Positions 6,158 through 29,076 of a stretch of 29,942 nt of DNA are shown one piece after another. The notes beneath the pieces were generated by a model. It saw nothing but the letters and a program-made list of their open reading frames with translations. It did no database searches and was not told where the DNA came from. The stretch comes from a virus. Location: IMG/VR virus record IMGVR_UViG_3300009160_000121, positions 1-29,942 of that record; one strand, 5' to 3'. Both the position numbers and the translations under genes were made by a program. The first letter of the stretch is position 1; each line of letters opens with the position of its first letter.

Positions 6158-9100
6158 ATGAATTTACCCGAAGGATTTACGCTCGAACAGCAAAAGCCGA
6201 GTCTGCCAGAAGGATTTAAACTTGAAGAGCAAAAATCAAATTTGCCAGAAGGCTTTAAGCTTGAAAAGCAACCCGATAGTTTAGGTAGGTTTATAGCCGA
6301 GCCTGAACAAGAAGCTAAAACTGCTAACCCGTTTAAGGGCTTGGTAGCTCGTGCATCTAGCTTAGCAGGTGAAGGTGTAGAAGCAGTTGCTCGGGTTGCA
6401 GAAAACCTTGGTGACAAACTAGAGACAGCGCTGCCTTTAACCAACTTAACTCCAGAACAAATTCAAAATGAACAACAACTAAAACCTATGTTCCAATGGG
6501 CTGATGCCTTGCGTAATTACGGTAAAGATATTGGCTACGCGCCATCTACGCAACTAGGTGAGATTCCTGGTAAACCCTTACTACTTGTGCCGTTTATTGC
6601 TGAGCGGGTTATTTCTTCTGCCCCAGATATGGCTGCGGCGGTGTTGGCTGCACCAGCCTACGTAATGGCAAGAACTAACGAGATTCTTAATGATCGTCTT
6701 ACTAACGACAAAAAAGAATTAAAAGATGCAACTGTTGCCGACGTTACTGCCGCTGTCGGCGCTGCTGTATTAGAAACCACACTTGAAAGATTTGCTACTA
6801 AAGGACTACTTAAAACTAAGTTTGGTGCAGAAGCATCTACGGGCGCACGTCGAATTGGTAAAGAAACCGCATTACAATCTGGCACAGAGGCGGTTGAAGA
6901 AGGTGTTGGTTATCTTGGCGGTACAGCAGGAACTCAAAAAGGCGTCGATGCTGCAGAGTTAGCGCAGAATATGCTTGAAGGTGCTATAGTCGGCGGAGGT
7001 TTGGGTGCAGGTGTTCAAGGCGGTAAAGAATACTTTAGTAAGAAAGAACGTGCTAAGCTAGAAGAAATTCTTGAGCCAGATTTAGAAGCTAAACTTGGAA
7101 GAAAGCCGACAGATGTAGAGCTTGGTGGGTTTGTAGATACATTCTTAAACGAAAGAAAACGTGCAAAAGATGCAGAAAAAGAGGTAAAAGATGAGCGAGA
7201 GATTGAAAGTAGAACTGACGCCGGAAGAGTTGAGCCAAGCATTCCTACATCTGAGCAACAACAAGCCGGTGAGCCCGCCACAGGAACTACAACACTTACC
7301 CCTGGAAGCTTGGGTGGAGATACAGGACTTGCTAATAAACCTGGAGTGGGAGAAGAAACACAGCCGGCTGCATTAACAGACGACGAAATAGTAGCAAAAG
7401 CTCAAGAGTTTCAAGATAAAAGAAAAGCTCTGCTAACCCCAACGGGGAGAATACCTTTAGCTAATTCTAAAAAAGGCAGGGAATATCAAGCCCTAGTAGT
7501 TGCCGAAGAAGATTTTGTTAGAAATGCAAACGCACAAAGACGCGCTGCTGCACCGCAAGAAGCAGATGTGACGCCAGAGATTACATCTGCTGAAGTTGAA
7601 AATCAAAACGTAATAAGTTTAGAAAAAGTAGCTAGAGAAAAATTTATTGCTGGTGCCGCTAAAGAATCTTTTGATGCGCAGTTATATACATTAAACAAAC
7701 TATACAACGAAGGTTTTGCTACTGACGAAGATTATCAAAAGTTTGAGGAAGCTATTAAAGATGCCCCAGATCAATTAATGGCTATTGCAAGAGGCACTAA
7801 AATTCTTTCTGCGGTTAAACAAAGAGCGCAATCAGCTACAGAACAAAGACTATCAACAGAAGCAGCTAACACAGAAACAAATGCTGCTACTGCTAAAGAG
7901 GGTGAAGTTGAGGTTGCCGAAGAAAATGCAGATAAGCCAGATTCCCCTGTTATTCAAGCACAGATAAGCACCGCACCGACTGAAACAACTCAGGCGGCAG
8001 AACCCCCAGCAGTAGTAGCCCCTGAGGTAAACCCTGTAGTAGAAGCGCTTAACGCCCTTAGCTCCCAAAGACAGATGGCTATGGACCAAGGAGATACAGT
8101 CGGCGCAAGACAATTACTACAGCAGATGGGTGCACTGCGTAAAGACCTACCAGAAGATCATCCGTTACATGTAACAACAGACAATAAAAAGAAAGTTGTG
8201 CTTACTAAAGCCCAACGTAAAGCTGCTGCTAAAAAAGCCCCTGAACCTAAGGCCGTAGCTAATTCTAGCCCCCGCGTTGAAGAAGTTAAAAACGATGTAA
8301 TGTTTAAGTCGGCACACCCAACTGTGCTGGACGCTATTAAAAACAATGATTTACAGTCGGCGCTTAAAGCCCTTAAAAATACAGGGGGTCAGTTCTTATC
8401 TAACTTTGCCGACCGACTAATGCAGCTTAACCTAGATACTAAAATCGGCTTTGACCTGCAGTATGGTTTGGTTGATAAGTATTTAAAGAATACAGAACAG
8501 CAGCGTATCCGTGTTTTGATGTTCTTGGAGATCTTTCACCCTGATATATTTAACGACCATTTCAACCAAAGAAAGATGCACACTCCCGTGATTCAAATGT
8601 CGGAGTCTTTCTATAAGCTAAAATCAGGTAAGTTTAACGTTGATATGCGCGGGTTTGAAGAAGATCTTAAAGATATAACAAAGGCATTTAGCAAAGGTTT
8701 GAGCGCTTTGGCTGCTCCCGGGATGTTCTATAACCGCACGGCATCCTTTAATACTGCACTAGGTACGCCAACAACTAACCATACTATTGTGCATGAGGTA
8801 ACTCACGCTGCTTCTCATTGGGCTATTTCTAACGAGCACTTATTAAACGCAACCCAAAAGAAAGCCCTTGCTAACTTAAAAGAACTATTTAATTACGCTA
8901 AAGAAAACGCTAAAGATCAAAGCGTTTACGGGTATACCGACTTGCATGAGTTTGTTTCAGAGGCATTTAGCAGTCCAAAATTCCAAAGAGAACTGCGTAG
9001 CATGCAACGCGCTATGGACTCTAACCAGTCTGCGTGGTCTAAGTTTATTCAGTTTGTATACGGTCTAGTTGGTGGCGATAACGTCTTATTCCATACTATG

Positions 9101-12100
9101 GCAAACGCTGATGTTTTATTCTCAGCTAATACAGATACAGACTCTAATATCAGTTCTCCAATGCTCGCTCCTGATAAATACAACGTCAGCAAAAACGGCA
9201 ACTTTAAGGTTAATACTAGCGAGCGCTTTAGTTTAGGCAATTTGTTTAAGGCTTTACGCGCCGGTAAACTTAGCTGGAAAGACATAAATAAAAAGAATTT
9301 ATCTAAGTTCTTAGATACAACTAACCAGCAATACCGCCGCTATTTACTAGGGGGTTTAACCCTTGACCAGCTTACAGATATAGTCGGCACAGAGTTACCA
9401 CAGTTCCAGCAATACGTCCGAGAAGTAGATGCGATGATAAACACCCGCAATCAAATCCTATCAGAGGGTGAAAGTGCGATTAGGGATTGGAGCCGACTCC
9501 AAGAAACAAACAAACCTAAAGCAGAGCAGCTTGCTAAGATGATGCTTGAAGCTACGCTTAACAAGATGGATCCAGATGTTATGGAGCCACAGCTAAAGAA
9601 CGTTTCTAAATCGGGATTAAGCGGACCTTTAAAAGAATACCACGACAATTCTGCTTTGCGTAAGGCTTGGCAAGATATGATTAACGGCCCTGATGGAGAT
9701 AAAGCTCTTTCTATTTACCAAGAAGTTAGAAAGTTCTATGAGCGTCGTGCCGAAGAATACGTAAACATCCAGCTAAATCGTTTGAGAGAACGTGAAGAGG
9801 CTAGAGGCACAGATAAAGCAGAAATAAAAACTAAAGTAGACGCTGAGCGTAAAGAATTAACTAAAGAAATGATCCAGCCTTACTTCCCAATCAAGCGTTT
9901 CGGCGACTATTGGTTGCAGATTGGTAAAGGCAAGAAGAAAATCTTTATGCAGTTTGAAGATGCTTGGTCTAGAGATATGGCTTTGGAAGAAAGAAGGCAA
10001 GAGCTTATTGATGGTGGTATGACTGAAGAGATGGCTGATAATGAACTAGATTCTGGTCAGGGCTTTAGCGAAGGTTTTGGTCAACGCCTAGCCGACGTTG
10101 AGCATTTGAAGAAACTAAAAGACCGTGTTGATGCTGAGTCTGATAACATTCTTGCAAGCACAGATCCGGCTGTTAAAGCCGACGAAGTTAACTCATTGCG
10201 TGATGCCTTGAAAGACGGCTTCGACCAGTATTATTTAGAGACGCTTCCAGCACAAAGTATTCAGAAGATGTTCCTGCATCGTAAGAATGTGGCGGGTGCA
10301 AGTATAGATATGCTCCGTGCGTTTGCAGTATCTCGTCAGCGTGTGGCTTATCAAAGAGCTCGTTTCCAGCACATGCCTGAGTTGTTTAATAAGATTGAAG
10401 GCGCACGTACGTTCTTAAAGACAGTCCCATTTGCTGAACGCAATCGGCTTAGAGATTATGTCAACGAGCTAGAGCTTAACCTTAAGAACGCTATCTTAGA
10501 ACCCCCTAAACAAAGTGGCTTAACCACAGGCTTAACTCAGTTTGGCTTTTTGCATTTCTTAACATCTCCGGCTTCTGCAATCGTAAATGCTTTGGCTATC
10601 CCTGGCATCTATATACCTAACGCTGCGCCTAAGTATGGTATGGCTAACACTACAAAGGCTTTGGCTAAATATAACCGCATGCTTGGTGGCACAGGTTGGA
10701 GAAACGACGAAAATGGTCGTGTTGAGTTCTTGTCTTTATCTCGTGCTGGTTTAGAAGACGTTAATTTTACCGGCACCGAAGACAATCAAATAGCCCTTCC
10801 AACAGGAAAAAGTTTAGCCGACGTATATAACGAAGGGGTTAGACGTGGGGTTATTGATACTACTTTGACCCATGAAGCTGCATCTATTGGTGAACAGCCG
10901 TCTAACGAATACACGGGAAAATGGCAGAAGTTTATGTACTACGCTAGCTTGCCATTCCACTCAGCTGAAAAATATAACCGTGAAACAGCGTTCATGTCTT
11001 CGTTTGAATTAGCATACAACAAGTATATGGCGCCAGTAAGCGAAGGCGGTAAAGGATACACAGCCGAGAAAGCCTATGATGCTGCTATACAGGATGCACG
11101 TGATCTTACACAAAAGACCATGTTTAACTACAACACAATTAACAAACCACGCTATTTCCGTGGGGACTTAAGGAACGTAATACTACAATTTAAGATGTAT
11201 CCTCAGCACATGACTGTTCTTATGTATAGGACTTTGCATCAAGCTATTGGTATTGGCCAGGATCTTGAATTAAAACAGTTTGAGGAAAGCTTAAAAACAG
11301 CCCCTGCTGCAGATAGAGATGCTGCAATTGCACAGAAAAAAGCTGAATTAAAATTAGAAAAGAACGAAGCTATTAAAGCGTTTACTGGCATGATGGCGTT
11401 TACATTTGCGTCGGCGGGCATTACTGGTTTACCTTTATTCTTTGTGTTCCAAGGCGTTGCGTCGGCTTTCCATGCCGCGTTTGGCGATGACGATGAGCCT
11501 TTTGATTCAGAGAACTGGTTCAAAAATTGGTGTAACAGAACCTTCGGCGGGTTTGCTGGGGACATTATGTCTCGTGGTATTGCATCTAAAGTTACTGGAA
11601 TTAACTTTGCCGACCGTATGGGTGTTAACTTAACCGACATGTGGTTCCCAGACGTTAGGAAGAGTCAGGATGAAGTGCAATACGTACAAAACTTAATGAC
11701 TAACTTACTTGGCCCAACTATGGGTGCGGGTATGGGGATTGTAAAAGCAATTAAAGATTACAGAGACGGTTACTCAGAACGTGCTATAGAAGGCATGATG
11801 CCTGCAGCTATTAAGAATGTAATGGTCGGTACTCGCTATCTTACCGAAGGTAAAGCAATGACCATGAAGGGCGCTACTTTAGATGAAAACGTTACTCCAG
11901 CAGAAGCATTAGCACAGATGTTAGGTTTCTCTCCAGAAGATACCGCCCAAAAACAAAAAGCTACTTTTGAAATGAAGAACACTAATGAAGTAATTATTAC
12001 ACGCCACAACGATTTACTAAATGCTTTCTTTATAGCAGTTGATGGTCACGATACAGTTATGATGGCTAAAGTATTAGAAAAAATTCAACGGTTTAATAAA

Positions 12101-12276: not shown

Positions 12277-12330
12277 TCAAGAACAACTGAAAGGAAGTAG
12301 CCGAAACCAAACGACTACAACCCGATAATA

Positions 12331-15310: not shown

Positions 15311-15335
15311 ATCACCTCAAAACCGAAAGAAAGGA

Positions 15336-15390
15336 AGGGCAGCAGGGGGGGTCGGCATCCCCCTTTTCGTTCCGTCAAACTAGCTGCCCT
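15336..15390 (-). promoter_or_regulatory. Nested hairpin in the leader of the primase-helicase gene
   Basis: An 8-bp perfect inverted repeat (AGGGCAGC at 15,336-15,343 and GCTGCCCT at 15,383-15,390) encloses a second hairpin, GGGGG/CCCCC at 15,347-15,351 and 15,359-15,363. On the - strand RNA the outer stem is followed by a pyrimidine-rich tract (TCCTTTCTTTCGGTTTT) and then by the GAGGTGAT ribosome site of the primase gene. It could be an attenuator, a weak terminator or a processing site. The structure is directly visible; the role is inferred. Confidence 0.55.
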
Positions 15391-15398
15391 GGGGTAGA

Positions 15399-15641
15399 CT
15401 ATGCGCTAAAGCAAGCCTTCTCTAGCATTGTTTTTATTTTTTCAGCCCTAGCTTTACTAGGTTTTGCAGCCCCAGTAAACCACTGATATATCGTCATGCG
15501 TGAGACGTTGAACTTGCCAGCAATCTGAACAACAGGGATATCTTTAGACATACAATACCGACCAAGCTGAACTCCCATTAATGCAGAGTCCGCTTCTTGG
15601 TTAGCTTTGTAAAGCCGAAGGCTGTAGCCCCTTAAACTCAT
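15399..15641 (-). CDS. Small helix-turn-helix DNA-binding protein, 80 aa
   Basis: The start is placed at the ATG at 15,641 because it forms an ATGA junction with the upstream SSB-like stop; a longer reading to 15,659 is possible. Residues about 33-70 have an XRE-like helix-turn-helix: DIPVVQIAGKFNVSRMTIYQWF followed, after a short loop, by a basic helix (KARAEKIKTML); the sequence is split here for brevity. It is a candidate phage transcription regulator, possibly one that binds the three palindromes further right (inference only). It lies inside the replication operon, between the SSB-like gene and the primase leader hairpin. Confidence 0.75.
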   Translation of the reverse strand: MSLRGYSLRLYKANQEADSALMGVQLGRYCMSKDIPVVQIAGKFNVSRMTIYQWFTGAAKPSKARAEKIKTMLEKACFSA

Positions 15642-16513
15642 GCTTCTTCTTGGCTCCATCCACTCATGATCGACTTAATGTCTTTCTTAGGTGTCGGCGC
15701 TTCAGCTTTTTTCTCAGGGCGCTTCTTCGGTTCAGCAATCGGCTCGGCTTCTTCTCTAGCTGCTGGCTTTGGTGCAGCCAACTTAGGAGCATTTGAATCG
15801 CCTTTAGGTACGCTCATCTCAATAGCTTTTAGTGCTGATGAAGACATACCTTGCTTCTTAGCTAATTCCCAATCTTCTTCAGACAAGAAATCTGTAGGCT
15901 TAAAGAACAACTTAGCGGTATCTGAATCTGGATCAAAGCGCATTTCAGTAATCATGTTGTTTAAGTTGTAGCCTTGTGAAGCTACGTAACTACCAAACTG
16001 CTCAAACGGCATGTGATCTAAATCGCCTTTACCAAAGATTGACTTAGAAGCTAGAGTCATCTGATAGACATCGCCACCGACATTATCTGCAAGAGCTACT
16101 GCAATACGACGGAAGTGACGGCAAGCACGACCACCACCTGCACTTGAGCCTTTAATATTCTGTGGGCACTCGTTACAATTATGGTGCTGAGGCTCATCAA
16201 TACTTGCATCAGGACGATCGCCATCATTAGACCAGCAGTCAGGAGGGGTAGCTTCAGCTTTAGGGTTATAAGCACCAGCATAGAATGTGCGGGATACTTT
16301 CTTAGCATTGTTTACTACAACAACACTCAGTGTCTCGCTATTGCTAGTCATTACTTCTTCGCCATTTACAACCATGCGGAACTTACCGCCACGCAAAGAA
16401 ATACGTTTGCTACCGCCACCACCACTACCCATAAGGGCTTTAGTAGCGTCATCTAATTCGACCTTTTTAAGATAGTCGGGTAAATCTTTTTTAAACAGAG
16501 CTAGTTCGCTCAT
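15638..16513 (-). CDS. Probable single-stranded DNA-binding protein with zinc-like Cys cluster, 291 aa
   Basis: A beta-rich core (residues about 37-200) follows a poly-Gly linker at 30-35. Cys93, His110/His111, Cys113, Cys116 and Cys131 look like a zinc site (PDCW ... HHNCNEC ... RACRHF). The C-terminal third (about 230-280) is Ala/Pro/Lys/Glu-rich and disordered, ending in an IKSIMSGWSQEEA tail. This layout is seen in phage SSB-like proteins beside replication genes, though the tail is not the usual SSB acidic tip. The ATG is preceded by AAGGAG inside the upstream gene and overlaps its stop (ATGA). It would protect and organise unwound DNA. The function is inferred from layout and context. 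Confidence 0.6.
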   Translation of the reverse strand: MSELALFKKDLPDYLKKVELDDATKALMGSGGGGSKRISLRGGKFRMVVNGEEVMTSNSETLSVVVVNNAKKVSRTFYAGAYNPKAEATPPDCWSNDGDRPDASIDEPQHHNCNECPQNIKGSSAGGGRACRHFRRIAVALADNVGGDVYQMTLASKSIFGKGDLDHMPFEQFGSYVASQGYNLNNMITEMRFDPDSDTAKLFFKPTDFLSEEDWELAKKQGMSSSALKAIEMSVPKGDSNAPKLAAPKPAAREEAEPIAEPKKRPEKKAEAPTPKKDIKSIMSGWSQEEA

Positions 16514-16908
16514 TTGCTTCTCCTTACAGTTATTGAGTATGCGCTATCCACATTTAGCCCCGCGGGTAGCAAATCGGGGTTTTCTTCTAGGAATTGTTTG
16601 ATATTTGTTTGATGAACTCTACGCTCTAATAACTCAGGCACTTGATGTTCAAAAATAAAATCGTAGAATCGTTCCCAATCATTAGTCCAGTATCTTGACT
16701 TAACTGTTCTGATAGCAGTGCCATGCGCAGTTTTAATACTGTCGGCGCCTGTCTCTTCACAGATCTGTAAGATTTGCTGGTTAATAATATCTAGCTGCTC
16801 TTCAAAGTCGGCTTCAATTCTATCCGCTTCTTTACGAGCAGTATCACGTGCGTCTCGTATTTTTATATATACGTTAACGAGTGCATCAACTGACGGTTTA
16901 TCGTCCAT
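16510..16908 (-). CDS. Conserved coiled-coil phage protein, 132 aa
   Basis: Residues about 8-55 form a charged helix or coiled coil (VYIKIRDARDTARKEADRIE). A compact C-terminal part follows with ADSIKTAHGTAIRTV, YWTNDWERFYDFI and an HQTNIKQFLEENPDLLPAGL segment. This pattern recurs in small phage proteins encoded immediately before SSB-like genes, but no function is established that I can name. It is the first gene after the strong promoter at 16,954-16,982, with AAGGAAG before the ATG, and its stop overlaps the SSB-like start. A replication or recombination accessory role is likely from context. Confidence 0.7.
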   Translation of the reverse strand: MDDKPSVDALVNVYIKIRDARDTARKEADRIEADFEEQLDIINQQILQICEETGADSIKTAHGTAIRTVKSRYWTNDWERFYDFIFEHQVPELLERRVHQTNIKQFLEENPDLLPAGLNVDSAYSITVRRSK

Positions 16909-16953
16909 GTACTTCCTTTCATAATTTATATTGGATCTTTGTCCATTTATGTA

Positions 16954-16982
16954 ATACTAAACCTAAAGCTATACCTTGTCAA
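16954..16982 (-). promoter_or_regulatory. Sigma70-type promoter for the SSB/primase operon
   Basis: On the - strand the consensus TTGACA (complement of 16,977-16,982) is separated by exactly 17 nt from TAGTAT (complement of 16,954-16,959). The expected transcript start is near 16,947, giving a leader of about 40 nt before the ATG at 16,908. The -35 box overlaps the stop codon of the helicase gene. Confidence 0.75.
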
Positions 16983-18361
16983 GTATTTTCTTCAACTTCA
17001 TTTTTATACAGGTCAATTAGTTTATCATGAACATCTAATTTCTTTTGTAGTAAGTTATACAATCTTCCTTCTACGGGAGAACCCTTAATATGCACGATGG
17101 TCATAGGATTCTTTTGCCCTTTTCTATCAATACGTGCGTTGGCTTGCAAATATGTTTCAATTGATGTAACAGGGGCGTACCAAATAATTACGTTAGCTGC
17201 AGTCAATGTAACACCATGCGCCGCTGCTTGTGGTTGAATTATAAGGACTCGTGGGTTCTCATCTTCTTGGAAGCGTTTAAATATGTCGTTGCGTTTAGTG
17301 ACTGGGACCGCACCGTTGATAACATCACAAGTATGTCCTGCTTTTGTTAGGTGAGCTTTTAATAACTCTATCGTGTGAGTGAACGGTACAAATACAAGAA
17401 CTTTGTGACTAGCTTCTTCGATAACTTCCTCGATAACTCGTAACCGATTAGAAACATCAAACTCAACAACGCTACCGTTGTCAGAATAAACAGCACCACC
17501 ACTAATTTGAAGCAGTTTATTAAGATTAACAGCGGCATTAACAGACGTAACCTCTTCCCCTGCAGCCACCATGAGCATTTCTTTTTTGAGGAGTTTGTAG
17601 TATTTTGCCTGTTGCGGAGTAAGGGGGGCGTCTCTGAAAACATGTGTCACCTCTGGTAAGTCTAAGCATTGTTCTTTAGTAAATCGGATTGCTGGTTGGA
17701 GCGCATCAAATACAATTTCATTAGCGTTTTCCCTAGGAACCCATCTATACCTACTAAGGTTTTCCATTGTCTGATCTCTAAACTTACCAAAGAATTTAGG
17801 CACTCGGTGAGCTACGCACATCTTAGCTAAGCCGTAAGCATCTGTTGGGTTTTGGGCGGCTGGTGTTCCCGTCATCATCCATAGCCATGTGTCTGGTGTT
17901 ATTAAAGAATTGAGTGTTTTCCAGCGCTGTGTAGTAATTGTCTTATAAGCATTCGCTTCGTCAACTACAATTAAATCAAAGCCGCCTTCAGCAATCTCGT
18001 TGCGTACAATCTCAATGCCGTCATAGTTAATAATGACAAACTCGGCACTGCCTCTGATAACTGCTTTGCGTTTCTCTCTATCTCCATACGCAATATTGAC
18101 TCGGCGATGAACTGCAAACTTAAACAAGTCGGCTTGCCATGCGGATTGCATAATAGATAGCGGGCAAATAATAAGAACTCGGTTTATAACTTCCTGTTCT
18201 AGTAGGCAGTCGGCTGCCCATATTGCTGATGCTGTTTTGCCTGTACCCTGCTCGTTAAAGCAGAAGGCTCTTTGATTTGTTGCTAAAAATATTGATGTTT
18301 CTTTTTGATGCTCCATTGGGGGGTATACCCCAGGCCACTTATATACATCATTTTTTGCCAT
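16979..18361 (-). CDS. SNF2/superfamily 2 DNA helicase, 460 aa
   Basis: The start is set at the ATG at 18,361, which overlaps the HNH gene stop; a longer in-frame reading to 18,490 would run inside the HNH gene. Motif I is QGTGKT near residues 38-43, motif II DEAN at 134-137, motif III TGTP at 164-167, and motif VI RIDRKGQ lies in the C-terminal third near residue 410. This is the compact SNF2-like helicase common in phages, about the usual 450-500 aa. It would remodel or unwind DNA during replication or recombination, together with the nucleases encoded just upstream. The following promoter's -35 box overlaps its stop, so a second transcript starts here. Confidence 0.85.
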   Translation of the reverse strand: MAKNDVYKWPGVYPPMEHQKETSIFLATNQRAFCFNEQGTGKTASAIWAADCLLEQEVINRVLIICPLSIMQSAWQADLFKFAVHRRVNIAYGDREKRKAVIRGSAEFVIINYDGIEIVRNEIAEGGFDLIVVDEANAYKTITTQRWKTLNSLITPDTWLWMMTGTPAAQNPTDAYGLAKMCVAHRVPKFFGKFRDQTMENLSRYRWVPRENANEIVFDALQPAIRFTKEQCLDLPEVTHVFRDAPLTPQQAKYYKLLKKEMLMVAAGEEVTSVNAAVNLNKLLQISGGAVYSDNGSVVEFDVSNRLRVIEEVIEEASHKVLVFVPFTHTIELLKAHLTKAGHTCDVINGAVPVTKRNDIFKRFQEDENPRVLIIQPQAAAHGVTLTAANVIIWYAPVTSIETYLQANARIDRKGQKNPMTIVHIKGSPVEGRLYNLLQKKLDVHDKLIDLYKNEVEENT

Positions 18362-18632
18362 TTTTTGGCTTATTTTGTTTGACTGTGTGGTCTGAGTTTC
18401 GGCTAAACGAACGGTTGGAGCTAGGCGACTTGAGTTTAAGGTTGCCTGCCGCATTTGTACCGCCTTTTGATAAGGGAATGACATGGTCAATATCCTTCCC
18501 CGTTCGGTCTATGCCCTTCTTGTCCATCGTATAGCGGGCTTTCTCCCGTGCGTTGCGGGCTGGCTGTTCCCCCCGAGCTTTTTGTTGCTGGTATTCTTTC
18601 TTGTACGGGCGTGGTTTGTTCACGTAAGGCAT
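18348..18632 (-). CDS. HNH endonuclease, 94 aa
   Basis: The ATG at 18,632 is chosen because AGAGGAAG lies about 7 nt upstream; an in-frame ATG at 18,671 is less well placed. The N-terminal half is Lys/Arg/Gln-rich (KPRPYKKEYQQQKARG). The HNH core is DIDHVIPLSKGG...NLKLKSPSSNRS, with His, Asn and Asn in the usual spacing. Phage HNH proteins of this size act in packaging-site cleavage, recombination or homing. The first half overlaps the end of the upstream gene in another frame by 146 nt, and its stop overlaps the helicase start. Such a long overlap is unusual here, where most junctions overlap by 1 to 14 nt. Confidence 0.75.
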   Translation of the reverse strand: MPYVNKPRPYKKEYQQQKARGEQPARNAREKARYTMDKKGIDRTGKDIDHVIPLSKGGTNAAGNLKLKSPSSNRSFSRNSDHTVKQNKPKNGKK

Positions 18633-21484: not shown

Positions 21485-21638
21485 ACAAACTTCCAAGCGC
21501 AATAGCGTCGTAGACTTGCTTGGTTGCTTTTAAAACATACTCAATGTCGTTAGGGGTTAACTGCCCCATCAACTGCATTATCTTCATCACCGCAATATCG
21601 TTATCTAACGCTTGGGGTTCAATTAGTTTTTCAATCAT
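21471..21638 (-). CDS. Small helical protein after DNA polymerase, 55 aa
   Basis: Read directly from the - strand: ATG at 21,638 overlaps the polymerase stop (TGATG), 55 codons, TGA at 21,471. The protein is helical and amphipathic (KLIEPQALDNDIAVMKIMQL, then LTPNDIEYVLKATKQVYDAI). Coupling to the polymerase stop suggests stoichiometric expression with it. No family recognised. Confidence 0.65.
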   Translation of the reverse strand: MIEKLIEPQALDNDIAVMKIMQLMGQLTPNDIEYVLKATKQVYDAIALGSLYEDL

Positions 21639-23437
21639 CAACATTCTCCATAAGATTTACCAACACCTAGTTCACAAGCAAGAGGTAGTGTTAATGCCCA
21701 GGACGGCCGCCACTTCATGCACTCTTCTACATATGCTACCGCCTCTTCTTGCTCCTCTTCTTTTACTACAACCATGACCGCATCATGCACAGTCAAAGCA
21801 ACTTTATATTTCCTAGCCATACGCAACATCTGCTCACCAATAATGCACCGAGCAAGTGCTTGGCAAAGATTCTCTACTATCTTCCCACCGTAAATCTTAA
21901 TGCGACCCCGCCTACTTGCATAGCTATATTGGTCGTCGCTATCTTTCTGTAAATCACGGTAGTTTAGGTAAAGTCCACTAGGTAATAAAAAACCTGATTC
22001 CGTAAGGCTAAGTGCTTGGGGTTGACACCCGACAGGCGCAGTTTTCTTTTGTGTGAGCGCATCAAGGGCGCTATTAGCTTCTTTCCACAGTTGGGGTATG
22101 TGGGGGTAAGTGGCTCTGTAAACTGAGATAATTCTAGACGCTTCCTCATCCGCAATTTCCACGCCAAAAGTTTTGAGTTGTAGTGCAAATTTTTTACTGC
22201 CCATGCCATACCCCGCACCGAGAATCGTCGTCTTACCGACGAACCTTTCGCCCGAGTCGATTTCTTCTTCTGCCTTGTTATATATAGCTGACGCCATGAT
22301 CTTGTATACATCTTCTTTCCTTTCAAACGCTTCGATCAAATCCGTTTGACCCGACAACCATGCAACTGTTCGTGCTTCAATTTGTGAGGAGTCGGCGTCA
22401 ATTAAAACATATCCTTTAGGGGCAACAATAGAATCTTTGAGAAGAGATTTACGAGGTAGGTTTTGTAAATTGAGTTTGTCATCGCCTCCCCAACGACCAG
22501 TATGAGCAGCATAATAGCGAAGAGGTACTGGCATCCTTCCCCGTAGGGATATTTGGATAAATCTTTCTGTTCTAGTTTCTTCAAGTGTGCTTTTAGTTCC
22601 AAGTCGTGCGGCAACGATGGCTTGAACCCTCTCGTCAGGGTGTTCCATGAGTGCTTTAAATCCTTCGTCGTTCTTAGCAAAGGCATAAGTTTCCTTTCCG
22701 TTAGCAGGGCTTATCTTCATAGGTGGCTCAACCCCAAGAGATATAAGTAGTTCAGCCAGCTTTGGATTTGACATCAAGGTATCTTTATCTGATACGCAAG
22801 CATCAAGTAACTTTTCTTTGCGGGTCCGCACTTGCATTAAATGTTGTTCAAGTAGCGGTGTATTTAGTTGAAGCACAGGCTCAGAAAACATCTTGATCGT
22901 GAGGCTAATGAGTTGTAGTTCTGATTTTGAAAAGCGGTCGGCGAGGATAAAGAATAGCTTGTAGGTTAGTTCCACGTCGTTAATGCAATATTTACCATAC
23001 GCATTAAGTTCACTAGGAGAAAAATCTGACCTTCTCTTACCCAATGCGTCAAGGACTTCTGTTCCTTTTGCGCCAAGATTATATCGCCCCACAAGCTTAG
23101 CAAGGGAATTTCCAGCTTCCAAACCATCTGTCGAACGTGCCATGCTAAGCGTGTCCAACCAAGCCATCGGTTTAATACCAAACCCCCAAGTAAGAATAGC
23201 GGAATCAAACATAGCATTATGGGCAAGAGCAAAAGAGTTATCCCAATCGTATTTATGAAGGAAGTCAGAAACTTGCCCGTGTGTCCCACTAAACCAAACT
23301 GCATCATTGTCGTTCTCCTTAACGGCTACACCTATGACCTCAAACATATCCGAACGGACATATTCCTCTGTTGTGACTTTAGTAAGACTGAACTCTCTAC
23401 TGTAATAGGTTTCAAAGTCTAGGGTAATTATGTTCAT
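21638..23437 (-). CDS. Family A DNA polymerase with 3'-5' exonuclease, 599 aa
   Basis: Exonuclease motifs: LDFET (Asp7, Glu9), AHNAMFD (Asp78) and YCIND (Tyr150-Asp154). Polymerase motif A is DADSSQIEAR at 347-356; the motif B region is RFVGKTTILGAGYGMG at 398-413; motif C is TVHDAV at 549-554. All three pieces place it with the compact phage family A enzymes of about 600 aa. In motif C the usual HDE is HDA (Ala553); the catalytic Asp552 is kept, and this variant is known among phage polymerases. The enzyme copies the phage genome with the primase-helicase. The start overlaps the previous stop (ATGA), and a 55-aa gene starts on its stop. Confidence 0.9.
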   Translation of the reverse strand: MNIITLDFETYYSREFSLTKVTTEEYVRSDMFEVIGVAVKENDNDAVWFSGTHGQVSDFLHKYDWDNSFALAHNAMFDSAILTWGFGIKPMAWLDTLSMARSTDGLEAGNSLAKLVGRYNLGAKGTEVLDALGKRRSDFSPSELNAYGKYCINDVELTYKLFFILADRFSKSELQLISLTIKMFSEPVLQLNTPLLEQHLMQVRTRKEKLLDACVSDKDTLMSNPKLAELLISLGVEPPMKISPANGKETYAFAKNDEGFKALMEHPDERVQAIVAARLGTKSTLEETRTERFIQISLRGRMPVPLRYYAAHTGRWGGDDKLNLQNLPRKSLLKDSIVAPKGYVLIDADSSQIEARTVAWLSGQTDLIEAFERKEDVYKIMASAIYNKAEEEIDSGERFVGKTTILGAGYGMGSKKFALQLKTFGVEIADEEASRIISVYRATYPHIPQLWKEANSALDALTQKKTAPVGCQPQALSLTESGFLLPSGLYLNYRDLQKDSDDQYSYASRRGRIKIYGGKIVENLCQALARCIIGEQMLRMARKYKVALTVHDAVMVVVKEEEQEEAVAYVEECMKWRPSWALTLPLACELGVGKSYGEC

Positions 23438-23811
23438 AGGGTTTGTGTTACTCCAGCAATAGGAGTTTGCCCTAAAGCCTTTAAGTGGGCTTCTAAATGT
23501 TTGCTTTGTTCAATAGTTATAGAAGGTATTGGTGGAATTTGCGCCGCTAAAGCCCTTTTGCGTTGTGTAAACATATTCCCCAACTTTTTTACATTACTTT
23601 CTTCTGTTGGGTCAACGAGTTCCTCCAATACTTTTTCGGTAAAGCGTTGTTGCATAAGTTTGTTTATTCCGTCGGTAAGGGCTTGGCGGTCTTCTACCTC
23701 TAAAAAGTCTTTATGTTCGCCAATTACACCAGCCCATTTACTTCCAAAATCAAAAAACTCCTCAGGGTGGGTCTGCATCCGTTCAAGCAAAATTTTTACG
23801 CCATCATTCAT
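23434..23811 (-). CDS. Unknown protein upstream of DNA polymerase, 125 aa
   Basis: The ATG at 23,811 (MNDGVKILLERM) is chosen because it starts a compact helical protein after the nuclease gene ends at 23,843; a longer reading to 23,925 would overlap that gene with low-quality sequence. The visible protein has HPEEFFDFGSKW, a helix around LTDGINKLMQQRFTEKVLEEL and a Pro-rich linker. Proteins with this 'MNDGVKILLERM...PEEFF' start are common in podovirus replication regions with unknown role. The stop overlaps the polymerase ATG. Confidence 0.65.
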   Translation of the reverse strand: MNDGVKILLERMQTHPEEFFDFGSKWAGVIGEHKDFLEVEDRQALTDGINKLMQQRFTEKVLEELVDPTEESNVKKLGNMFTQRKRALAAQIPPIPSITIEQSKHLEAHLKALGQTPIAGVTQTL

Positions 23812-23842
23812 GTTTTTGTTTATCCTAGAGTGAGGGAACTGG

Positions 23843-24151
23843 TTAGCATCGACCGTCGTCAAGGTCAAACCTATGGAAATAAGATTCAAAGAAAGAAATG
23901 TTTTCTTCGTTCGCAACAAACGCATGACCGCCCGCAGTCATAATCTTTTTTAATTCTTTTTGTTGTAACGCAGTCGGCTTGTTATCGCCAGCCTTGCACT
24001 CAATTCCAACGAACTGACCACGAAAGCAAGCTATAATATCAGGGACGCCCGAGCGACCAAAGCCGCCAGTAGCGGGAAAGAAGTAGTAGACATCGTGCTT
24101 CTTTAGTATCTTGACGATAGAAGCTTTTACCTTAGACTCAGGTGTTGCCAT
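23843..24151 (-). CDS. VRR-NUC domain nuclease, 102 aa
   Basis: The full VRR-NUC/PD-(D/E)XK signature is visible: Glu5 in PESKVK, GRSGVPDII with Asp38, GIECKAG with Glu51 and Lys53, and TALQQ with Gln63-Gln64. Standalone VRR-NUC proteins of about 100 aa cut branched DNA such as Holliday junctions or flaps; in phages they serve replication intermediates and packaging-ready DNA. It is the first gene of the polymerase operon, with a promoter at 24,182-24,210 just upstream. Confidence 0.85.
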   Translation of the reverse strand: MATPESKVKASIVKILKKHDVYYFFPATGGFGRSGVPDIIACFRGQFVGIECKAGDNKPTALQQKELKKIMTAGGHAFVANEENISFFESYFHRFDLDDGRC

Positions 24152-24181: not shown

Positions 24182-24210
24182 AGTATACCAATAAGTCTAG
24201 CCATGTGCAA
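24182..24210 (-). promoter_or_regulatory. Probable sigma70 promoter of the polymerase operon
   Basis: On the - strand TTGCAC (complement of 24,205-24,210) and TATACT (complement of 24,182-24,187) are 17 nt apart. The -10 box is near consensus; the -35 is weak (TTG kept). A 29-bp palindrome lies about 27 bp upstream of the -35 box, in a position where an activator could help a weak -35. Confidence 0.55.
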
Positions 24211-24236
24211 GATATATTTGTAGGGATTTACCCTTA

Positions 24237-24265
24237 GGACAAACTGACATAATGTCATACTGTCC
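24237..24265. promoter_or_regulatory. 29-bp palindromic operator, copy 1
   Basis: GGACA-AAC-TGACAT-A-ATGTCA-TAC-TGTCC: both arms are perfectly complementary apart from the two 3-nt spacers, with an odd centre. The half GGACAAACTGACAT is identical in all three copies. It sits between the terminator of the VWA-side genes (24,281-24,306) and the polymerase-operon promoter. Confidence 0.75.
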
Positions 24266-24280
24266 TGTACTAGAAAAGGG

Positions 24281-24306
24281 CAAAAGAAAACCCCGCCGAA
24301 GCGGGG
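24281..24306 (-). terminator. Rho-independent terminator with UUCG-type loop
   Basis: CCCCGC at 24,291-24,296, loop CGAA and GCGGGG at 24,301-24,306. On the - strand the stem closes a TTCG tetraloop and is followed by TTTTCTTTTG, a clear intrinsic terminator. It ends the leftward transcript that contains the two unknown genes at 24,437-26,218. The 130 nt between it and the stop at 24,437 hold no gene that I can support. Confidence 0.85.
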
Positions 24307-24436
24307 TCGTAGGTGAAGTAGATTATGCCCTAGTGCATTTATGGGTTACATCAACTTAAGTCACATATACCAGATGAGTTAAGCCAACCCCGTGAAAGGA
24401 AATTACCAACGAAGGCAACCTCCCCCTGATTATACA

Positions 24437-25309
24437 TCAGACACTCGGGATAAAGAAATAGCCTTCACGGTATTTGCAACCAAACTGTGCGATAGGCTCA
24501 TCCTCTTTAAGAACTTTAAACATAGCAAACTTAGTAGCTATACTCTCGGGCAACTCATCAAACGATTTGTATTTAACAACAGCGTCGACTTCTAAGTCAT
24601 AGCAAACCAAACTGTTATCGTCGTTAGCTTTAATAGCGTAGCCTTTCTTAGCATCGTACGCCATCTCCAAAGCACCAGCACTTTTAAGAACCTCACAATG
24701 CCCTAGCCATTTATCTTTATCGTTTGTTGTTGTCGGTATTGATGGTAGTTTGACTGTATCTTCCCCCCTTAAGTACGCATCATGCCCTAGCATTGCATAG
24801 AATACCAACTCATCTTCTTGGTCACACATCCAACGCACCTGACTCTTTGCAGAAGAAAAGGTTTGCTTGACAAGGTTTCTAACTGTATTGCCAATTAACT
24901 CTTTTAGTTCTTCATCTGCTCTAGAATGAAATACCTTCTTGGCATGGCGTAGTGCTACCTTGATGTCTTTAGAGAATGTCCCGTTGGAGTTACCCCTTTC
25001 TTTACGAATACGAAAGCTCTCGACCATATAAACTAACTCTAAATCCCCACGATGGTGTCGGCGGTCAGTCGCAATACTGCCTAGGTATTCCCCATTTTCA
25101 TAGACCTTCAAACTCTTGATGAAGTGGCTCGGCTTAGTTTGTTTCTCTTCATCGGTGCGATACCACATCTGATTTACACACTCGTCGTCTACTTTAAAAT
25201 CAAGTAAAGGTTTAGCGAGCCTAATGAAGTGGGCAAACTTCTCCAACTCCTCAAAGAATGGCACATCCCTGTGCTTTAAATTAACTGCTGACTTATCTAT
25301 TGCTAACAT
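24437..25309 (-). CDS. Unknown protein of the MoxR/VWA cassette, 290 aa
   Basis: The ATG at 25,309 is preceded by AGGAGAAAGT. The protein is mixed alpha/beta: an acidic helical N-terminus, a strand pair around ENGEYLGSIATD, a charged Arg/Lys-rich helix region (about 105-150), and a C-terminal beta part ending YREGYFFIPSV. No catalytic motif or known family is recognised. It follows the 299-aa gene at 10 nt spacing, so the two are co-transcribed from palindrome copy 2 and end at the UUCG-type terminator. Association with the MoxR and VWA genes suggests a substrate or accessory protein. Confidence 0.65.
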   Translation of the reverse strand: MLAIDKSAVNLKHRDVPFFEELEKFAHFIRLAKPLLDFKVDDECVNQMWYRTDEEKQTKPSHFIKSLKVYENGEYLGSIATDRRHHRGDLELVYMVESFRIRKERGNSNGTFSKDIKVALRHAKKVFHSRADEELKELIGNTVRNLVKQTFSSAKSQVRWMCDQEDELVFYAMLGHDAYLRGEDTVKLPSIPTTTNDKDKWLGHCEVLKSAGALEMAYDAKKGYAIKANDDNSLVCYDLEVDAVVKYKSFDELPESIATKFAMFKVLKEDEPIAQFGCKYREGYFFIPSV

Positions 25310-25318
25310 ACTTTCTCC

Positions 25319-26218
25319 TTAAAATGAAAACTTGCCGAGTATTGCATCGACCTTGTTCTTAACTGCTTCTCTCGCTATGAAGTTTTCTCGGAGGTCGTCG
25401 GCATCGTGGTTCATAATTGCAGTAGCCAAGTCCCTTCGGGCTTGCTCCATAGAGGGGTCGCCTGTAAGGTTAAAATGTTTCAGGAGATCTACTAACTCCA
25501 CAGCATTTTCTAGCAGGCTGTCTCTAAATACTCGAGGTTTCATTACTTGTCCGTGACTCTCAGGCACATCACTGTCTACTACATCAACCCCAAGCCTGTC
25601 ACTCATGCGGGTTAGACAATCATGCAACCTAGACCAAGCATCACGCATTGCATTATCAAGGCGTTCTTTATATAGTCCTTCGCAACTCGCAATGATCTCA
25701 GCCTTTGCTTCTTCGTTGATGTCTACTCTAAAATCCCCTGCCATTGGCACAGGCAAGTAGTTCACATTAAACTTAAACTTTCTTGCTATGGTGTCGGCTT
25801 CGGGGTACTCGCTTCGGTCAAACAAATTACCTAACTGAAACGCTGCGGCATTGACCAAGTTAGGGTAGGCAATCACAAACTTATCGACTAGGTTTTCATA
25901 GTTAGTCTCAAGCGTATGCAACTGCTTTTTATAATCCATGAAGTTAGACATAGGCAGTAAGCGTAGTCCGTTGTCAGACCAAGGTAAGGTTTGAGATAGA
26001 TGCCATGCCCTTGCGTTCGCAGCATACTTCGTTATGCTATCAAGAAACCCCGTGCCTGCGAGTAGGTTCTTGTTGTAGTTGCCTGCCCTAGTCTTAGCGT
26101 TCTGATCTAAGTCAACTTGAGTTGATACCTTCTTATCTAGTTTCCTAGCAGTCCATGTGCTAATAGATAACTCCACTAACATGGCTGATGATGCGATTGA
26201 TATACTATTGTCTTGCAT
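25319..26218 (-). CDS. Unknown MoxR/VWA-associated phage protein, 299 aa (DUF3150-like?)
   Basis: The start is at 26,218 (MQDNSIS) because AAAGGAAATCAA directly precedes it; an in-frame ATG at 26,239 lacks this and lies next to the palindrome. The protein is almost wholly helical. Marks are SISTWTARKLDKKVS near residue 18, TLPWSDNGLRLLP near 80, and a long amphipathic helical region to the end. Proteins of this shape accompany MoxR- and VWA-type genes in other phages; DUF3150 is my tentative family, recalled and not searched. Palindrome copy 2 lies 15 nt upstream of the start. Confidence 0.6.
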   Translation of the reverse strand: MQDNSISIASSAMLVELSISTWTARKLDKKVSTQVDLDQNAKTRAGNYNKNLLAGTGFLDSITKYAANARAWHLSQTLPWSDNGLRLLPMSNFMDYKKQLHTLETNYENLVDKFVIAYPNLVNAAAFQLGNLFDRSEYPEADTIARKFKFNVNYLPVPMAGDFRVDINEEAKAEIIASCEGLYKERLDNAMRDAWSRLHDCLTRMSDRLGVDVVDSDVPESHGQVMKPRVFRDSLLENAVELVDLLKHFNLTGDPSMEQARRDLATAIMNHDADDLRENFIAREAVKNKVDAILGKFSF

Positions 26219-26233
26219 TTGATTTCCTTTCGT

Positions 26234-26262
26234 GGACAAACTGACATAATGTCAGAATGTCC
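26234..26262. promoter_or_regulatory. 29-bp palindromic operator, copy 2
   Basis: GGACA-AAC-TGACAT-A-ATGTCA-GAA-TGTCC. Same orientation as copy 1, in the 54-nt gap between the VWA gene stop (26,273) and the 299-aa gene start (26,218). No convincing sigma70 promoter is visible in this gap. Confidence 0.75.
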
Positions 26263-26272
26263 TTTGGTTTAA

Positions 26273-27460
26273 CTACTCAACATGAACGATCTTACCGACC
26301 ACAGTATCGGAATTGAATCGGCTATTACCTTTGATGCACCACATGACAGGCATAGTGACTGAAGTCCAATTAGCTTTATCAGAACCAAGATAGCCGTCGG
26401 TCAGCATGATTACACACTCGGGCTTTAGATCTTCCTTCTTCATATAAGCTGGCACACAGTCAGGATCAGTACCGCCCCCGCCTTTGGCTTGAGTTGATTC
26501 CACAAGGCTTGCTAACTCAGAACCCTGATAGGTTTCATGTCCTGCTACTCTAGTATCCCAATAGAGTAAGTCAATCTTCTCGGGACTAACCTCATCACAG
26601 ATAGACTTCACCTCACCCAAGAATTGTGCGAGTTCTTCTCCGCCAATAGAGCCTGATGTATCTACACCTACCACGATAGAGCCGACCTTCTCGTCATAGC
26701 TACTCGGCATAATGATATCCATACCGATATAGCGTTTGTGCAATCGCTTCCATGTGGTTTGATCTTTGCCTTGCGTTGTGGTCTTAACAAAATCACGCAA
26801 TGCTTCCTTCCAATCAACCTTCGGGGTAAGCAAGTCTTGCAGTTCTCTAGAAACATTACCGCCCATCTTGCCTGCAAGAATAGAACCTTGCCTTAACGCT
26901 GACTCGATTTCCTTGGCAACCTTTTCCTTTTCTTCAGCAGTAGCTTCCTTTGCACCATCCCAATCATGGTCATCGAAACCTTTACCACCGCTACCACCCC
27001 CGCCGTTTTCTTCGTATATCAATTTGAATACTTGGGCTGAGTCCATACCACGATACTTCTCGTCAATCAAACCCATGACTTCGCCGTTCTCATCAACAGG
27101 CATCTCGGTCATCTCATGGTTAGGATCGTAGTCTGCAATCTGTAAGTTAATCACATAATCACATGCTGCGTTAGCAACCTGTGCGTTCTTTCTATGTAGT
27201 GATTCCCATACAACTAGATGTCGATACGCTTTGTGCATAGTTTCGTGCAAGATTAAGAAAGCTAATTGCTTGTCATTCAACCTATCGACAAACTGTCTGC
27301 CGTATCTCACATCAACACCATTAGTGCAAGCGGTTTCCAAGTCGTCATCAACGCTGACTTTACCCACCATGAATAAACCTGAGAACAAGCAGAAGTTCTT
27401 GTGCTTCATCAGCTGCACATGAGTCCTCTCTATTCTCTGTTCTGCCGTCATCTTAGCCAT
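26273..27460 (-). CDS. DUF2201-like metallopeptidase fused to VWA domain, 395 aa
   Basis: The N-terminal domain has HETMH at residues 72-76, a zinc HExxH motif, followed by NAACDYVINLQI with Asp101 as a likely third ligand. An acidic, Gly-rich linker (about 150-180) follows. The C-terminal VWA-like domain has the MIDAS set DTSGS at 267-271, TD at 331-332 and TDG at 354-356. This is the DUF2201 arrangement, often labelled CobT-like in phages. VWA proteins with MIDAS sites pair with MoxR-type AAA+ ATPases, one of which is encoded just upstream. The role in phages is unknown; protein remodelling or metal-centre maturation are options. AAGGAACAAATAG precedes the ATG. Confidence 0.8.
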   Translation of the reverse strand: MAKMTAEQRIERTHVQLMKHKNFCLFSGLFMVGKVSVDDDLETACTNGVDVRYGRQFVDRLNDKQLAFLILHETMHKAYRHLVVWESLHRKNAQVANAACDYVINLQIADYDPNHEMTEMPVDENGEVMGLIDEKYRGMDSAQVFKLIYEENGGGGSGGKGFDDHDWDGAKEATAEEKEKVAKEIESALRQGSILAGKMGGNVSRELQDLLTPKVDWKEALRDFVKTTTQGKDQTTWKRLHKRYIGMDIIMPSSYDEKVGSIVVGVDTSGSIGGEELAQFLGEVKSICDEVSPEKIDLLYWDTRVAGHETYQGSELASLVESTQAKGGGGTDPDCVPAYMKKEDLKPECVIMLTDGYLGSDKANWTSVTMPVMWCIKGNSRFNSDTVVGKIVHVE

Positions 27461-27662
27461 CTATTTGTTCCTTTCTATAAGCAGGCATGTGTCCCATTGC
27501 CATTAAGTAACCATCAAAAAATGTAGGTAGGTTTGTTTTAAGTGCTTCTTCTTGTGGCATACCTACTGCTACTGCAAGCTGAACAAACTCTAGACTAATA
27601 GCTTTTGCTTCTGCTTTATTACGGCGATTCTTTGCCAATATGTCTGCCATTACTTCTTTCAT
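27453..27662 (-). CDS. Small helical protein, 69 aa
   Basis: GGGAG lies 7 nt before the ATG, whose A overlaps the stop of the 30-aa gene (TAATG). The protein is a basic helix (DILAKNRRNKAEAKAISLEF), a helix (VQLAVAVGMPQEEALKTNLP), and a short end (GYLMAMGHMPAYRKE). Its stop overlaps the VWA start by 8 nt, so it is translated immediately before it. It may be a partner of the VWA protein; no family recognised. Confidence 0.65.
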   Translation of the reverse strand: MKEVMADILAKNRRNKAEAKAISLEFVQLAVAVGMPQEEALKTNLPTFFDGYLMAMGHMPAYRKEQIDG

Positions 27663-27754
27663 TATTTACTCCCTATAAAAGCAATTAAAAATCCAGCTAC
27701 CATACCTAAACAAAAAGCGGTTAGCGACCACACAAATATAGATAAACCTATCAT
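27662..27754 (-). CDS. 30-aa single-pass membrane peptide
   Basis: Read directly from the - strand: AAGGAGA 9 nt before the ATG at 27,754, 30 codons, and a TAA that overlaps the next ATG. The peptide is almost entirely hydrophobic (IGLSIFVWSLTAFCLGMVAG, then FLIAFIGSK), one membrane helix. The ATG overlaps the upstream TGA (ATGA). Strong ribosome site and junctions on both sides make it a likely real gene. It places a membrane peptide inside the MoxR/VWA cassette. Confidence 0.65.
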   Translation of the reverse strand: MIGLSIFVWSLTAFCLGMVAGFLIAFIGSK

Positions 27755-27915
27755 GATTTAGTTCTCCTTAATAAATCCTGTGCTTCGTCTAATGCTTGCA
27801 CTAACCCATCAACCCATTCATTAAACGGCTCATCAGGGTCAGCACACATCTCACCAACACGCACTAAGTTAACCAATGCTTCTCTCAACTGTTTAGCTTC
27901 TTCTTCATATGTCAT
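27751..27915 (-). CDS. Small acidic helical protein, 54 aa
   Basis: Read directly from the - strand: AAGGAGAAGCC precedes the ATG at 27,915; 54 codons; TGA overlaps the start of the 30-aa gene. The protein is helical and acidic (YEEEAKQLREALVNLVRVGE, then DPDEPFNEWVDGLVQALDEA). It lies 9 nt after the MoxR gene stop. No family recognised; the ribosome site and junctions support it. Confidence 0.65.
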   Translation of the reverse strand: MTYEEEAKQLREALVNLVRVGEMCADPDEPFNEWVDGLVQALDEAQDLLRRTKS

Positions 27916-27924
27916 GGCTTCTCC

Positions 27925-29019
27925 TTAGAATAAATACTGATTAGTACGCATCCAATCAACAAACGATTGGCTTGTCAAAAAGAGTTTCTTCTTCTCGTCG
28001 TTCTTCATACCAGTCAAGCAGAATACAGACTGCAATTCTTTCGGTGTACGCTTGAGGTATTCAAAGAACTTACTGATGGTTTCACGATCTACCTTTTGTA
28101 CTGCTGAGAAAGCAAGTAAGCATAACGCAGCGGGTGAGTTCGGAACTTGAGCAGTTTGCGGTGATTTGCATATAGCTTCCCAAGTCGGTAGCGAGTCGGC
28201 GACTTCCACGAACGCCATCAGATCTCGTGCTGCTGGAGCACCAATCGTTCCTTCTAACGCACAAACAGTTGCGTTGGTTGTGACTCCCGCTCTTGCCTTA
28301 AGAATACTTGATGCTCTAGCAAGGGAACGAGGACTAACAAAAGACTTCTGTGCTTCTTTAGGGTTGAAGATATACTTGTTGCCGTTCTGTGCAGGGTCTA
28401 GGTATGAGGCTAAGCAATGCGGGGTATCTTTAACCCATGCTAGAACCTCAGGTGCTATCTCGTTATCAATCGCCCATGAACCCCATGAATCAGCATCAAT
28501 AGAGCCATCGGGATTAAAGCCTGCGTGTGGTTTTTTAACTGCGACCACCGAGATACGATTACGACTGTGTGCCATCATGTTATCGCCAACGCCATCGCCT
28601 GTGTAGTTGCCTGCCGTTACGACAATATCTTCGGGGTGTAGTGGAACTCCCATAATCATGCGTGGCTCATTAAGCATTGGGTGCAACATATTCTTTACTG
28701 CGGTGTGTGCTTTTGTGAACTCGTCAATGAAGATAACTTTTGGCTCGTTAAGATGGAAACCCCATTGTTCGTTGGGATAGATCCGCGTCGTTTTAGTTGA
28801 ATGGTCAGGAATTGGGATGCCTAGTTCGCCAAGTTCGATGTTTGGTGCGTCGATGTAAATGCCTTTTTTACCAGTTCTCTTAACAATATTTTTGAACATG
28901 GATGTCTTGCCTACCCCCGGCTCACCCATAAGATGAACTGTTCCGTTAGAACCAAGAGATACGATTAGGTCTTCTGCTTCTTTGAGGGTTGCTACTTTGT
29001 TTAAAAATACTTCAGACAT
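27925..29019 (-). CDS. MoxR-type AAA+ ATPase (CobS-like in phage annotation), 364 aa
   Basis: Walker A GEPGVGKT at 32-39, Walker B VIFIDE at 95-100, sensor 1 TAGN at 135-138, arginine-finger candidates in HSRNRI at 151-156, and a sensor-2-like SPRSLARA further on. Lengths and motifs fit MoxR/CobS-class AAA+ proteins, which form hexamers and act with VWA-domain partners to remodel or load metals into client proteins. A VWA/metallopeptidase gene lies 465 bp downstream, after three very small genes. AAAGGAAATCAAA precedes the ATG, nearly the same leader as the 299-aa gene, and palindrome copy 3 lies 28 nt upstream. Confidence 0.85.
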   Translation of the reverse strand: MSEVFLNKVATLKEAEDLIVSLGSNGTVHLMGEPGVGKTSMFKNIVKRTGKKGIYIDAPNIELGELGIPIPDHSTKTTRIYPNEQWGFHLNEPKVIFIDEFTKAHTAVKNMLHPMLNEPRMIMGVPLHPEDIVVTAGNYTGDGVGDNMMAHSRNRISVVAVKKPHAGFNPDGSIDADSWGSWAIDNEIAPEVLAWVKDTPHCLASYLDPAQNGNKYIFNPKEAQKSFVSPRSLARASSILKARAGVTTNATVCALEGTIGAPAARDLMAFVEVADSLPTWEAICKSPQTAQVPNSPAALCLLAFSAVQKVDRETISKFFEYLKRTPKELQSVFCLTGMKNDEKKKLFLTSQSFVDWMRTNQYLF

Positions 29020-29047
29020 TTTGATTTCCTTTTACAGTTTTAGTTAT

Positions 29048-29076
29048 GGACATTATGACTAGATGTCAGTTTGTCC
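29048..29076. promoter_or_regulatory. 29-bp palindromic operator, copy 3 (inverted)
   Basis: GGACA-TTA-TGACTA-G-ATGTCA-GTT-TGTCC. The conserved half (ATGTCAGTTTGTCC on the + strand) is reversed relative to copies 1 and 2, and the other arm has two mismatches. It lies between the unknown gene stop (29,078) and the MoxR start (29,019). Confidence 0.7.

Follow-up and report, generated by a model that had tools for sequence, protein, structure and literature searches.

The window analysed here, a 29,942-base fragment of a virus record, carries a series of leftward genes for a MoxR-like AAA ATPase, a DUF2201 metallopeptidase/VWA protein and a DUF3150-like protein, and an operon with a Hjc-like nuclease and DNA polymerase A (Table 1). 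The gaps in front of the MoxR, DUF3150-like and Hjc-like genes contain three copies of a 29 bp palindrome, searched for as GGACA-N3-TGACAT-N-ATGTCA-N3-TGTCC. Copies 1 and 2 match this pattern exactly, copy 3 with two mismatches, and 100 dinucleotide shuffles of the window yielded no match. The half GGACAAACTGACAT is common to all three copies; copy 3 carries it inverted. Copies 2 and 3 are located in gaps of about 55 bp without a strong promoter nearby, and copy 1 precedes the Hjc-like/DNA polymerase A operon by 85 bp. The three copies, the shared half with its inversion in copy 3 and the lack of a good promoter near copies 2 and 3 had been claimed in the original prediction and were borne out. 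Copy 1 is flanked by an intrinsic terminator on one side and a sigma70-like promoter on the other. The order terminator-then-operator is kept in 22 relatives, and the promoter on the Hjc side is retained as TTGCnn...TATACT. For the DUF3150-like gene the listed reading frame starts with a TTG at 26239; we preferred the ATG at 26218, which has a ribosome-binding site (RBS). No Rfam family matched at the three sites.

Table 1. Features around the palindromes in the window, and the R genes of the same phage in an overlapping contig (strand: -, leftward;., not assigned).
Feature	Position	Strand	Remarks
Operator copy 1, GGACAAACTGACATAATGTCATACTGTCC	24237..24265	.	upstream of Hjc-like/DNA polymerase A operon; syntenic site in ~25 relatives
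Operator copy 2, GGACAAACTGACATAATGTCAGAATGTCC	26234..26262	.	15 bp upstream of likely ATG (26218) of DUF3150-like gene
Operator copy 3, GGACATTATGACTAGATGTCAGTTTGTCC	29048..29076	.	opposite polarity; 28 bp upstream of MoxR ATG (29019)
Intrinsic terminator ending block, ACCCCGCTTCGGCGGGGT then TTTTCTTTT, leftward	24282..24307	-	sequence; 16 bp before copy 1
Sigma70-like promoter TTGCAC-17-TATACT	24182..24210	-	sequence; between copy 1 and Hjc-like gene
TAGGGATTTACCCTTA / TAGGGnnnnnCCCTA element	24221..24236	.	abuts operator copy 1; sequence constant across phages, unlike operator
Hjc-like nuclease gene	23843..24151	-	first gene downstream of operator copy 1
Gene after Hjc-like gene	23434..23925		
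DNA polymerase A gene	21638..23437		follows preceding gene
DUF3150-like gene	25319..26218	-	downstream of operator copy 2
DUF2201 metallopeptidase/VWA gene	26273..27460	-	
MoxR-like AAA ATPase gene	27925..29019	-	downstream of operator copy 3
R1 gene	8081..8737 in IMGVR_UViG_3300009152_000153		outside window
R2 gene	9540..10133 in IMGVR_UViG_3300009152_000153		outside window

The contig IMGVR_UViG_3300009152_000153 overlaps the right 16.7 kb of the window at 99.92% identity and extends 12.7 kb beyond. It contains eight copies of the palindrome, from 9061 to 18436, all within 10 kb. The three copies in the window are thus only the end of a larger set. About 60 related contigs were gathered from IMG/VR with the MoxR and VWA proteins. 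Nearly all MoxR relatives have a 28-31 bp palindrome in two tiers immediately before the MoxR start (outer arm 5, spacer 3, inner arm 4-5, loop), the letters of which are often wholly different. Within one genome or contig the copies are nearly constant; between genomes the arms can be unrelated. The motif types of individual contigs comprise GGACAnnnTGACA, GGACAnnCTTAG, GGACAnnGTTAC, GGACAnnGTGTC, GAACAnnnCCAT, GCACAnnTCAAG, TCACAnnTCGAA, GAACAnnCCGAC, CACYAnnTGACA, TACTTnGCGAC and GAACAnnCTAAC, among others. A matrix scan of 33 non-duplicate contigs identified 240 sites; one shuffled copy of each contig gave none. Per related contig 3-11 sites were present (about 35 contigs, 230-240 sites in all, the totals varying with the scan threshold). 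The contigs are fragments, several of them from the same lakes, and near-duplicates were excluded from the statistics; gene starts are our own calls. In the longest contigs (55-67 kb) every site is located within a single block of about 10 kb. Among relatives the sites are syntenic, i.e. they occupy short intergenic gaps at the same places, which supports the proposed regulon of MoxR/VWA genes and polymerase operon. By its own criterion, the original prediction would have been refuted by relatives that lose the palindrome while keeping the length of the gap. The relatives examined retain a palindrome there, with an altered sequence.

At the upstream end of the same 10 kb block all 27 contigs that reach far enough encode a protein of 190-240 amino acids, here termed R, in one or two copies per phage; contigs without R end at most 1.3 kb from the first site. 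The R genes have operators in front of them. Searches of Pfam, PHROG and NCBIfam gave no consistent match across the family, only scattered single-member hits, and profile and fold searches against the PDB gave none; no recognisable DNA-binding domain or helix-turn-helix (HTH) was detected. The best Foldseek hits were unrelated folds (E 0.73 and 1.2), and Cre appeared only at E 3.4 and 6.1. In the confident AlphaFold model of R1, four helices form an N-terminal domain and a long helical tail comes after it; pLDDT is 91.5 over the chain and 89.0 for the domain on its own. Because R lacks a database or PDB match, contact between R and DNA is something we infer. A tblastn search with R against cultured phages had no match. 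The cultured phages HTVC027P, DSL-LC04 and 023Pt_psg01 have the nearest terminases (52-59% identity), and the portions of them examined contained no copy of the sites and no R. Most of the distant VWA relatives (43-51% identity) have no such sites. Two of these, L042 and L052, have repeated palindromes of their own (CGACCTAAC...GTTAGGTCG; CTAAGTTAG...CTAACTTAG) and no R homologue. A search of GTDB genomes with a MoxR profile identified no prophage or host.

Many phages have two R genes (R1, R2), others a single one. GGACA outer arms are present in every two-R phage, but also in G027 and G049 with one R; an R1/R2 heterodimer is possible. The gap between R1 and R2 (L113, 9090-9489; L118, 4991-5450) consists of about 400 bp of non-coding DNA with 10-13 GAACA/TGTTC repeats. 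It is rich in these repeats in four two-R phages, the genome average being 2-3 per kb. Possibly the gap is iteron-like and serves as a replication origin or as a second operator array. A separate observation concerns a small CXXC protein (L113, 10431-10697, and orthologues). Its C-terminal half exists in a few sharply different versions that are shuffled among phages, e.g. APMNKSNY...LKQLNP vs PYSKGAYQYIHNP...TNP.

The switch of the operator sequence is most evident between close relatives. In the phages G010 and G011 the MoxR proteins are 97% identical and the VWA and DUF3150 proteins 93-94%. The flanks of the MoxR-side palindrome are 92% identical, yet the arms agree at only 6 of 18 positions. 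R lies past the contig ends in this pair, for which the operators alone were seen. In a second pair, G021 and G022, MoxR is 92% and R 20% identical; the arms have 6 and 8 of 18 positions in common and the flanks are about 70% identical. In motif-switched pairs arm agreement can be as low as 3-6 of 18, with flanks 64-92% identical, whereas same-motif pairs retain 17-18 of the 18, with flanks 74-93% identical. Within a type, then, no DNA is better conserved than the arms, and between types none is conserved worse. Exchange of the entire block would not account for this, as the intervening genes were retained. Most likely, the specificity of R shifts jointly with that of all its operators, and the genes in between remain the same.

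Which protein tracks the motif was examined by comparing, for each gene family, protein similarity with motif similarity in Mantel tests. The two R-gene families came out at the top of all gene families tested. For R, rho was 0.71 (Mantel p 0.001, 25 genomes); in the same 25 genomes MoxR had a rho of 0.03 and VWA of 0.11 (0.1-0.2 overall). Motif similarity was at least 0.92 in each of the 25 pairs with 50% or more R identity, and at most 0.68 in each of the 179 pairs with less than 25%. When only pairs with less than 50% R identity were considered rho was still 0.62, compared with -0.08 for MoxR. The observation that the palindromes change in step with R suggests a new phage gene switch with a shifting DNA address.

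An 86-amino-acid HTH protein encoded in the window had been proposed as the binder. It is widespread in these phages. We rejected this candidate because its similarity does not follow the motif (rho -0.04 in its own 18 genomes) and its recognition helix, SRMTIYxWF, is nearly unchanged among phages with unrelated palindromes. The TAGGGnnnnnCCCTA element next to operator copy 1, which recurs in the Hjc promoter region of relatives (48 matches vs 14 in shuffled contigs), could be the site of this invariant protein. Between the gene of the HTH protein and that of the primase, an int-alpA RNA (RF02996) was matched with 53.1 bits against a cut-off of 35.8 (window 15322-15390, minus strand), in a phage where no integrase was found.

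The position of the sites relative to transcription signals bears on their function. A strong sigma70-like start is located 23-70 bp upstream of 41 of 230 sites, mostly at 23-44 bp (3.1 expected; 13 in a mirrored control). An RBS and start codon follow within 50 nt downstream of 152 of the 230 sites, often in operon gaps without a promoter; the median distance from the palindrome end to the start codon is 24 nt. Directly behind an intrinsic terminator are 24 sites in 22 genomes; the polymerase operon's promoter then follows downstream, as at copy 1 of the window. It had been suggested that the site itself recruits a phage promoter factor. This was not supported, as the sites are downstream of ordinary sigma70-like promoters or too near to start codons to position a promoter. 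A sigma70-independent phage promoter would call for a phage RNA polymerase or a constant sequence. The sequence of the sites varies among phages. A search for a T7-type single-subunit RNA polymerase found none, and the control search was likewise empty.

We consider it probable that the palindromes are DNA operators of a phage-encoded dimeric regulator, R, and that the bound dimer obstructs RNA polymerase arriving from upstream. The computed multiplicity, synteny and within-genome constancy of the sites, their switching between genomes, their association with R and their placement with respect to promoters, terminators and RBSs jointly suggest that R binds the sites, presumably as a dimer, and may act as a roadblock. 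An R dimer seated on its operator would stop the polymerase just past strong sigma70-like promoters, in operon gaps, and behind the terminator between the block and the replication operon. Through the operators in front of its own genes R would also control itself. An obstacle made of protein suits the promoter, the RBS/gap and the terminator positions alike and has an analogy in the stoperators of cluster A phages (see below); for these reasons a roadblock repressor is favoured. An activator suits at most the terminator-side position, and an RNA switch suits the RBS positions and part of the promoter ones.

R might bind the palindromes on DNA for a different end, i.e. activation, looping, segregation or organisation of the genome, or control of replication. 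Most genomes have one site upstream of the Hjc promoter, some sites are in the non-coding gap rich in GAACA/TGTTC repeats, and the long helical tail of R would be suited to oligomerisation. We regard such a role as unlikely: the placement of the sites goes with transcription features (24 are behind terminators, 41 at +23 to +70 of strong promoters, and the majority precede an RBS), an activator of a sigma70 promoter would have too little room at the sites only 15-30 bp away from a start codon, and no partition ATPase was noted near R.

The palindromes could also act in the transcript, as a two-tier hairpin before the RBS which is bound by R or another protein and controls translation or mRNA processing. 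Most sites are in the transcript between its start and the RBS, and the proximity of about two thirds of them to an RBS and start codon is predicted by a translational mechanism as well. Here we compared the arms of one copy with arms drawn from different copies in the same genome. Real copies had 1876 Watson-Crick pairs, fewer than the 1901 ± 6.5 after re-pairing of the halves, and G-U pairs were not enriched (48 observed vs 47.7). Complementarity in the spacer was avoided (412 vs 484.6 ± 9.4), AA in one half corresponding to TT in the other; this resembles an internal loop. Both polarities of the palindrome occur in 22 of 31 genomes, which fits recognition of two half-sites on DNA. Overall, the A bias of the spacer is on the sense strand by 96 to 44. 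This counts against the operator reading, since a purely symmetric DNA site would not need such a bias; as a guess, the bias may keep the transcript from forming a perfect hairpin. Sites behind terminators and upstream of promoters would hardly be transcribed. As changes in the arms are non-compensatory and G-U pairs are not enriched, the palindrome is a DNA site. The RNA hairpin was rejected on these grounds, and we give an RNA element little chance; the preference for a dimeric DNA-binding protein, already voiced in the original prediction, was upheld.

Since the link between R and the motif is a correlation, the binder could be a partner always travelling with R, such as another protein of the block or a regulator of different hosts. 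Two other proteins do correlate with the motif: one of 132 amino acids from the block, with rho 0.65 over 11 genomes, and a giant virion protein, with rho 0.61 over 13 genomes. This explanation is very improbable, because on shared genomes R correlates better (0.81 against 0.78 for the 132-amino-acid protein, 0.93 against 0.76 for the virion protein), R alone among these proteins is present in every long-enough contig, and a host factor would not switch between phages with other genes 90-97% identical unless the host had changed.

With R as the regulator and the palindromes as its operators, a wider proposal can be made, to which we give slightly less than an even chance. R would found a new family of sequence-specific DNA-binding proteins that paces or silences one early block via palindromic stoperators, with no sign of lysogeny. 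Turnover would be fast, five to eleven dispersed operators being rewritten together while the intervening proteins are 90-97% identical. No tyrosine or serine recombinase/integrase was found in 18 records, several of 55-67 kb. Consequently, lysogen immunity, the usual purpose of such systems, is without support in the contigs searched; instead of lysogeny, the system may serve to time the early block or to let co-infecting phages interfere with each other. The phages provide a natural series of matched regulator/operator pairs, with at least 11 distinct site types, each accompanied by the protein where the contig is long enough. These pairs make it testable how a regulator and many dispersed sites shift specificity together, and why heteroimmune-like specificities would be needed in phages without an integrase, for which competition during co-infection may be a reason. 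If the proposal is true, it adds a DNA-binding family that current databases fail to recognise, and gives synthetic biology orthogonal repressor/operator pairs.

In open-access papers we found no description of such a system. The closest relative in function is the stoperator system of cluster A mycobacteriophages such as L5 and Bxb1 (PMC6550527, PMC9283540). There, one repressor has many dispersed sites, mostly in gaps and not at promoters, and the motif differs between related phages and follows the distance of the repressor sequences. Likewise, we observed a repeated motif in short gaps that differs among relatives and tracks a protein. Stoperators are asymmetric sites of about 13 bp, 20-30 per genome and mostly in one orientation, in temperate phages, and the repressor binds as a monomer with an HTH and a second (stoperator) domain (PMC6550527, PMC9283540). 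By contrast, the sites described here, 5-11 in number, are 28-31 bp palindromes in either orientation and confined to one 10 kb block; no HTH was detected in R, and the contigs searched yielded no integrase. The block of elongation by bound repressor was established experimentally in L5 (PMC6550527, PMC9283540), while here it is predicted from the position of the sites (transcription start 23-44 bp upstream, adjacent terminators). The system works like stoperators, but with its palindromic site, both polarities and an R without detected HTH it is not a member of that family. A second parallel is MrpR (YopR) of phage SPbeta. Its SPBRE repeat is intergenic, was found in silico and later turned out to be bound by an unusual phage master repressor (PMC10516654). 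The element described here is also a repeated intergenic one recognised in silico. SPBRE is a 15 bp motif in promoter regions and MrpR has a tyrosine-recombinase fold (PMC10516654); R has no significant structural match to MrpR or any PDB entry. Operators downstream of a promoter that block elongation are known from Lac repressor O3 autoregulation and the Kpn2I C protein (PMC3711431, PMC6237814). Those share the placement downstream of a promoter but consist of one or few sites for known HTH proteins, as opposed to a co-evolving set across a gene block. Thus, the kind of system is known; the protein family, the design of the site and the speed of switching appear to be new against the libraries searched.
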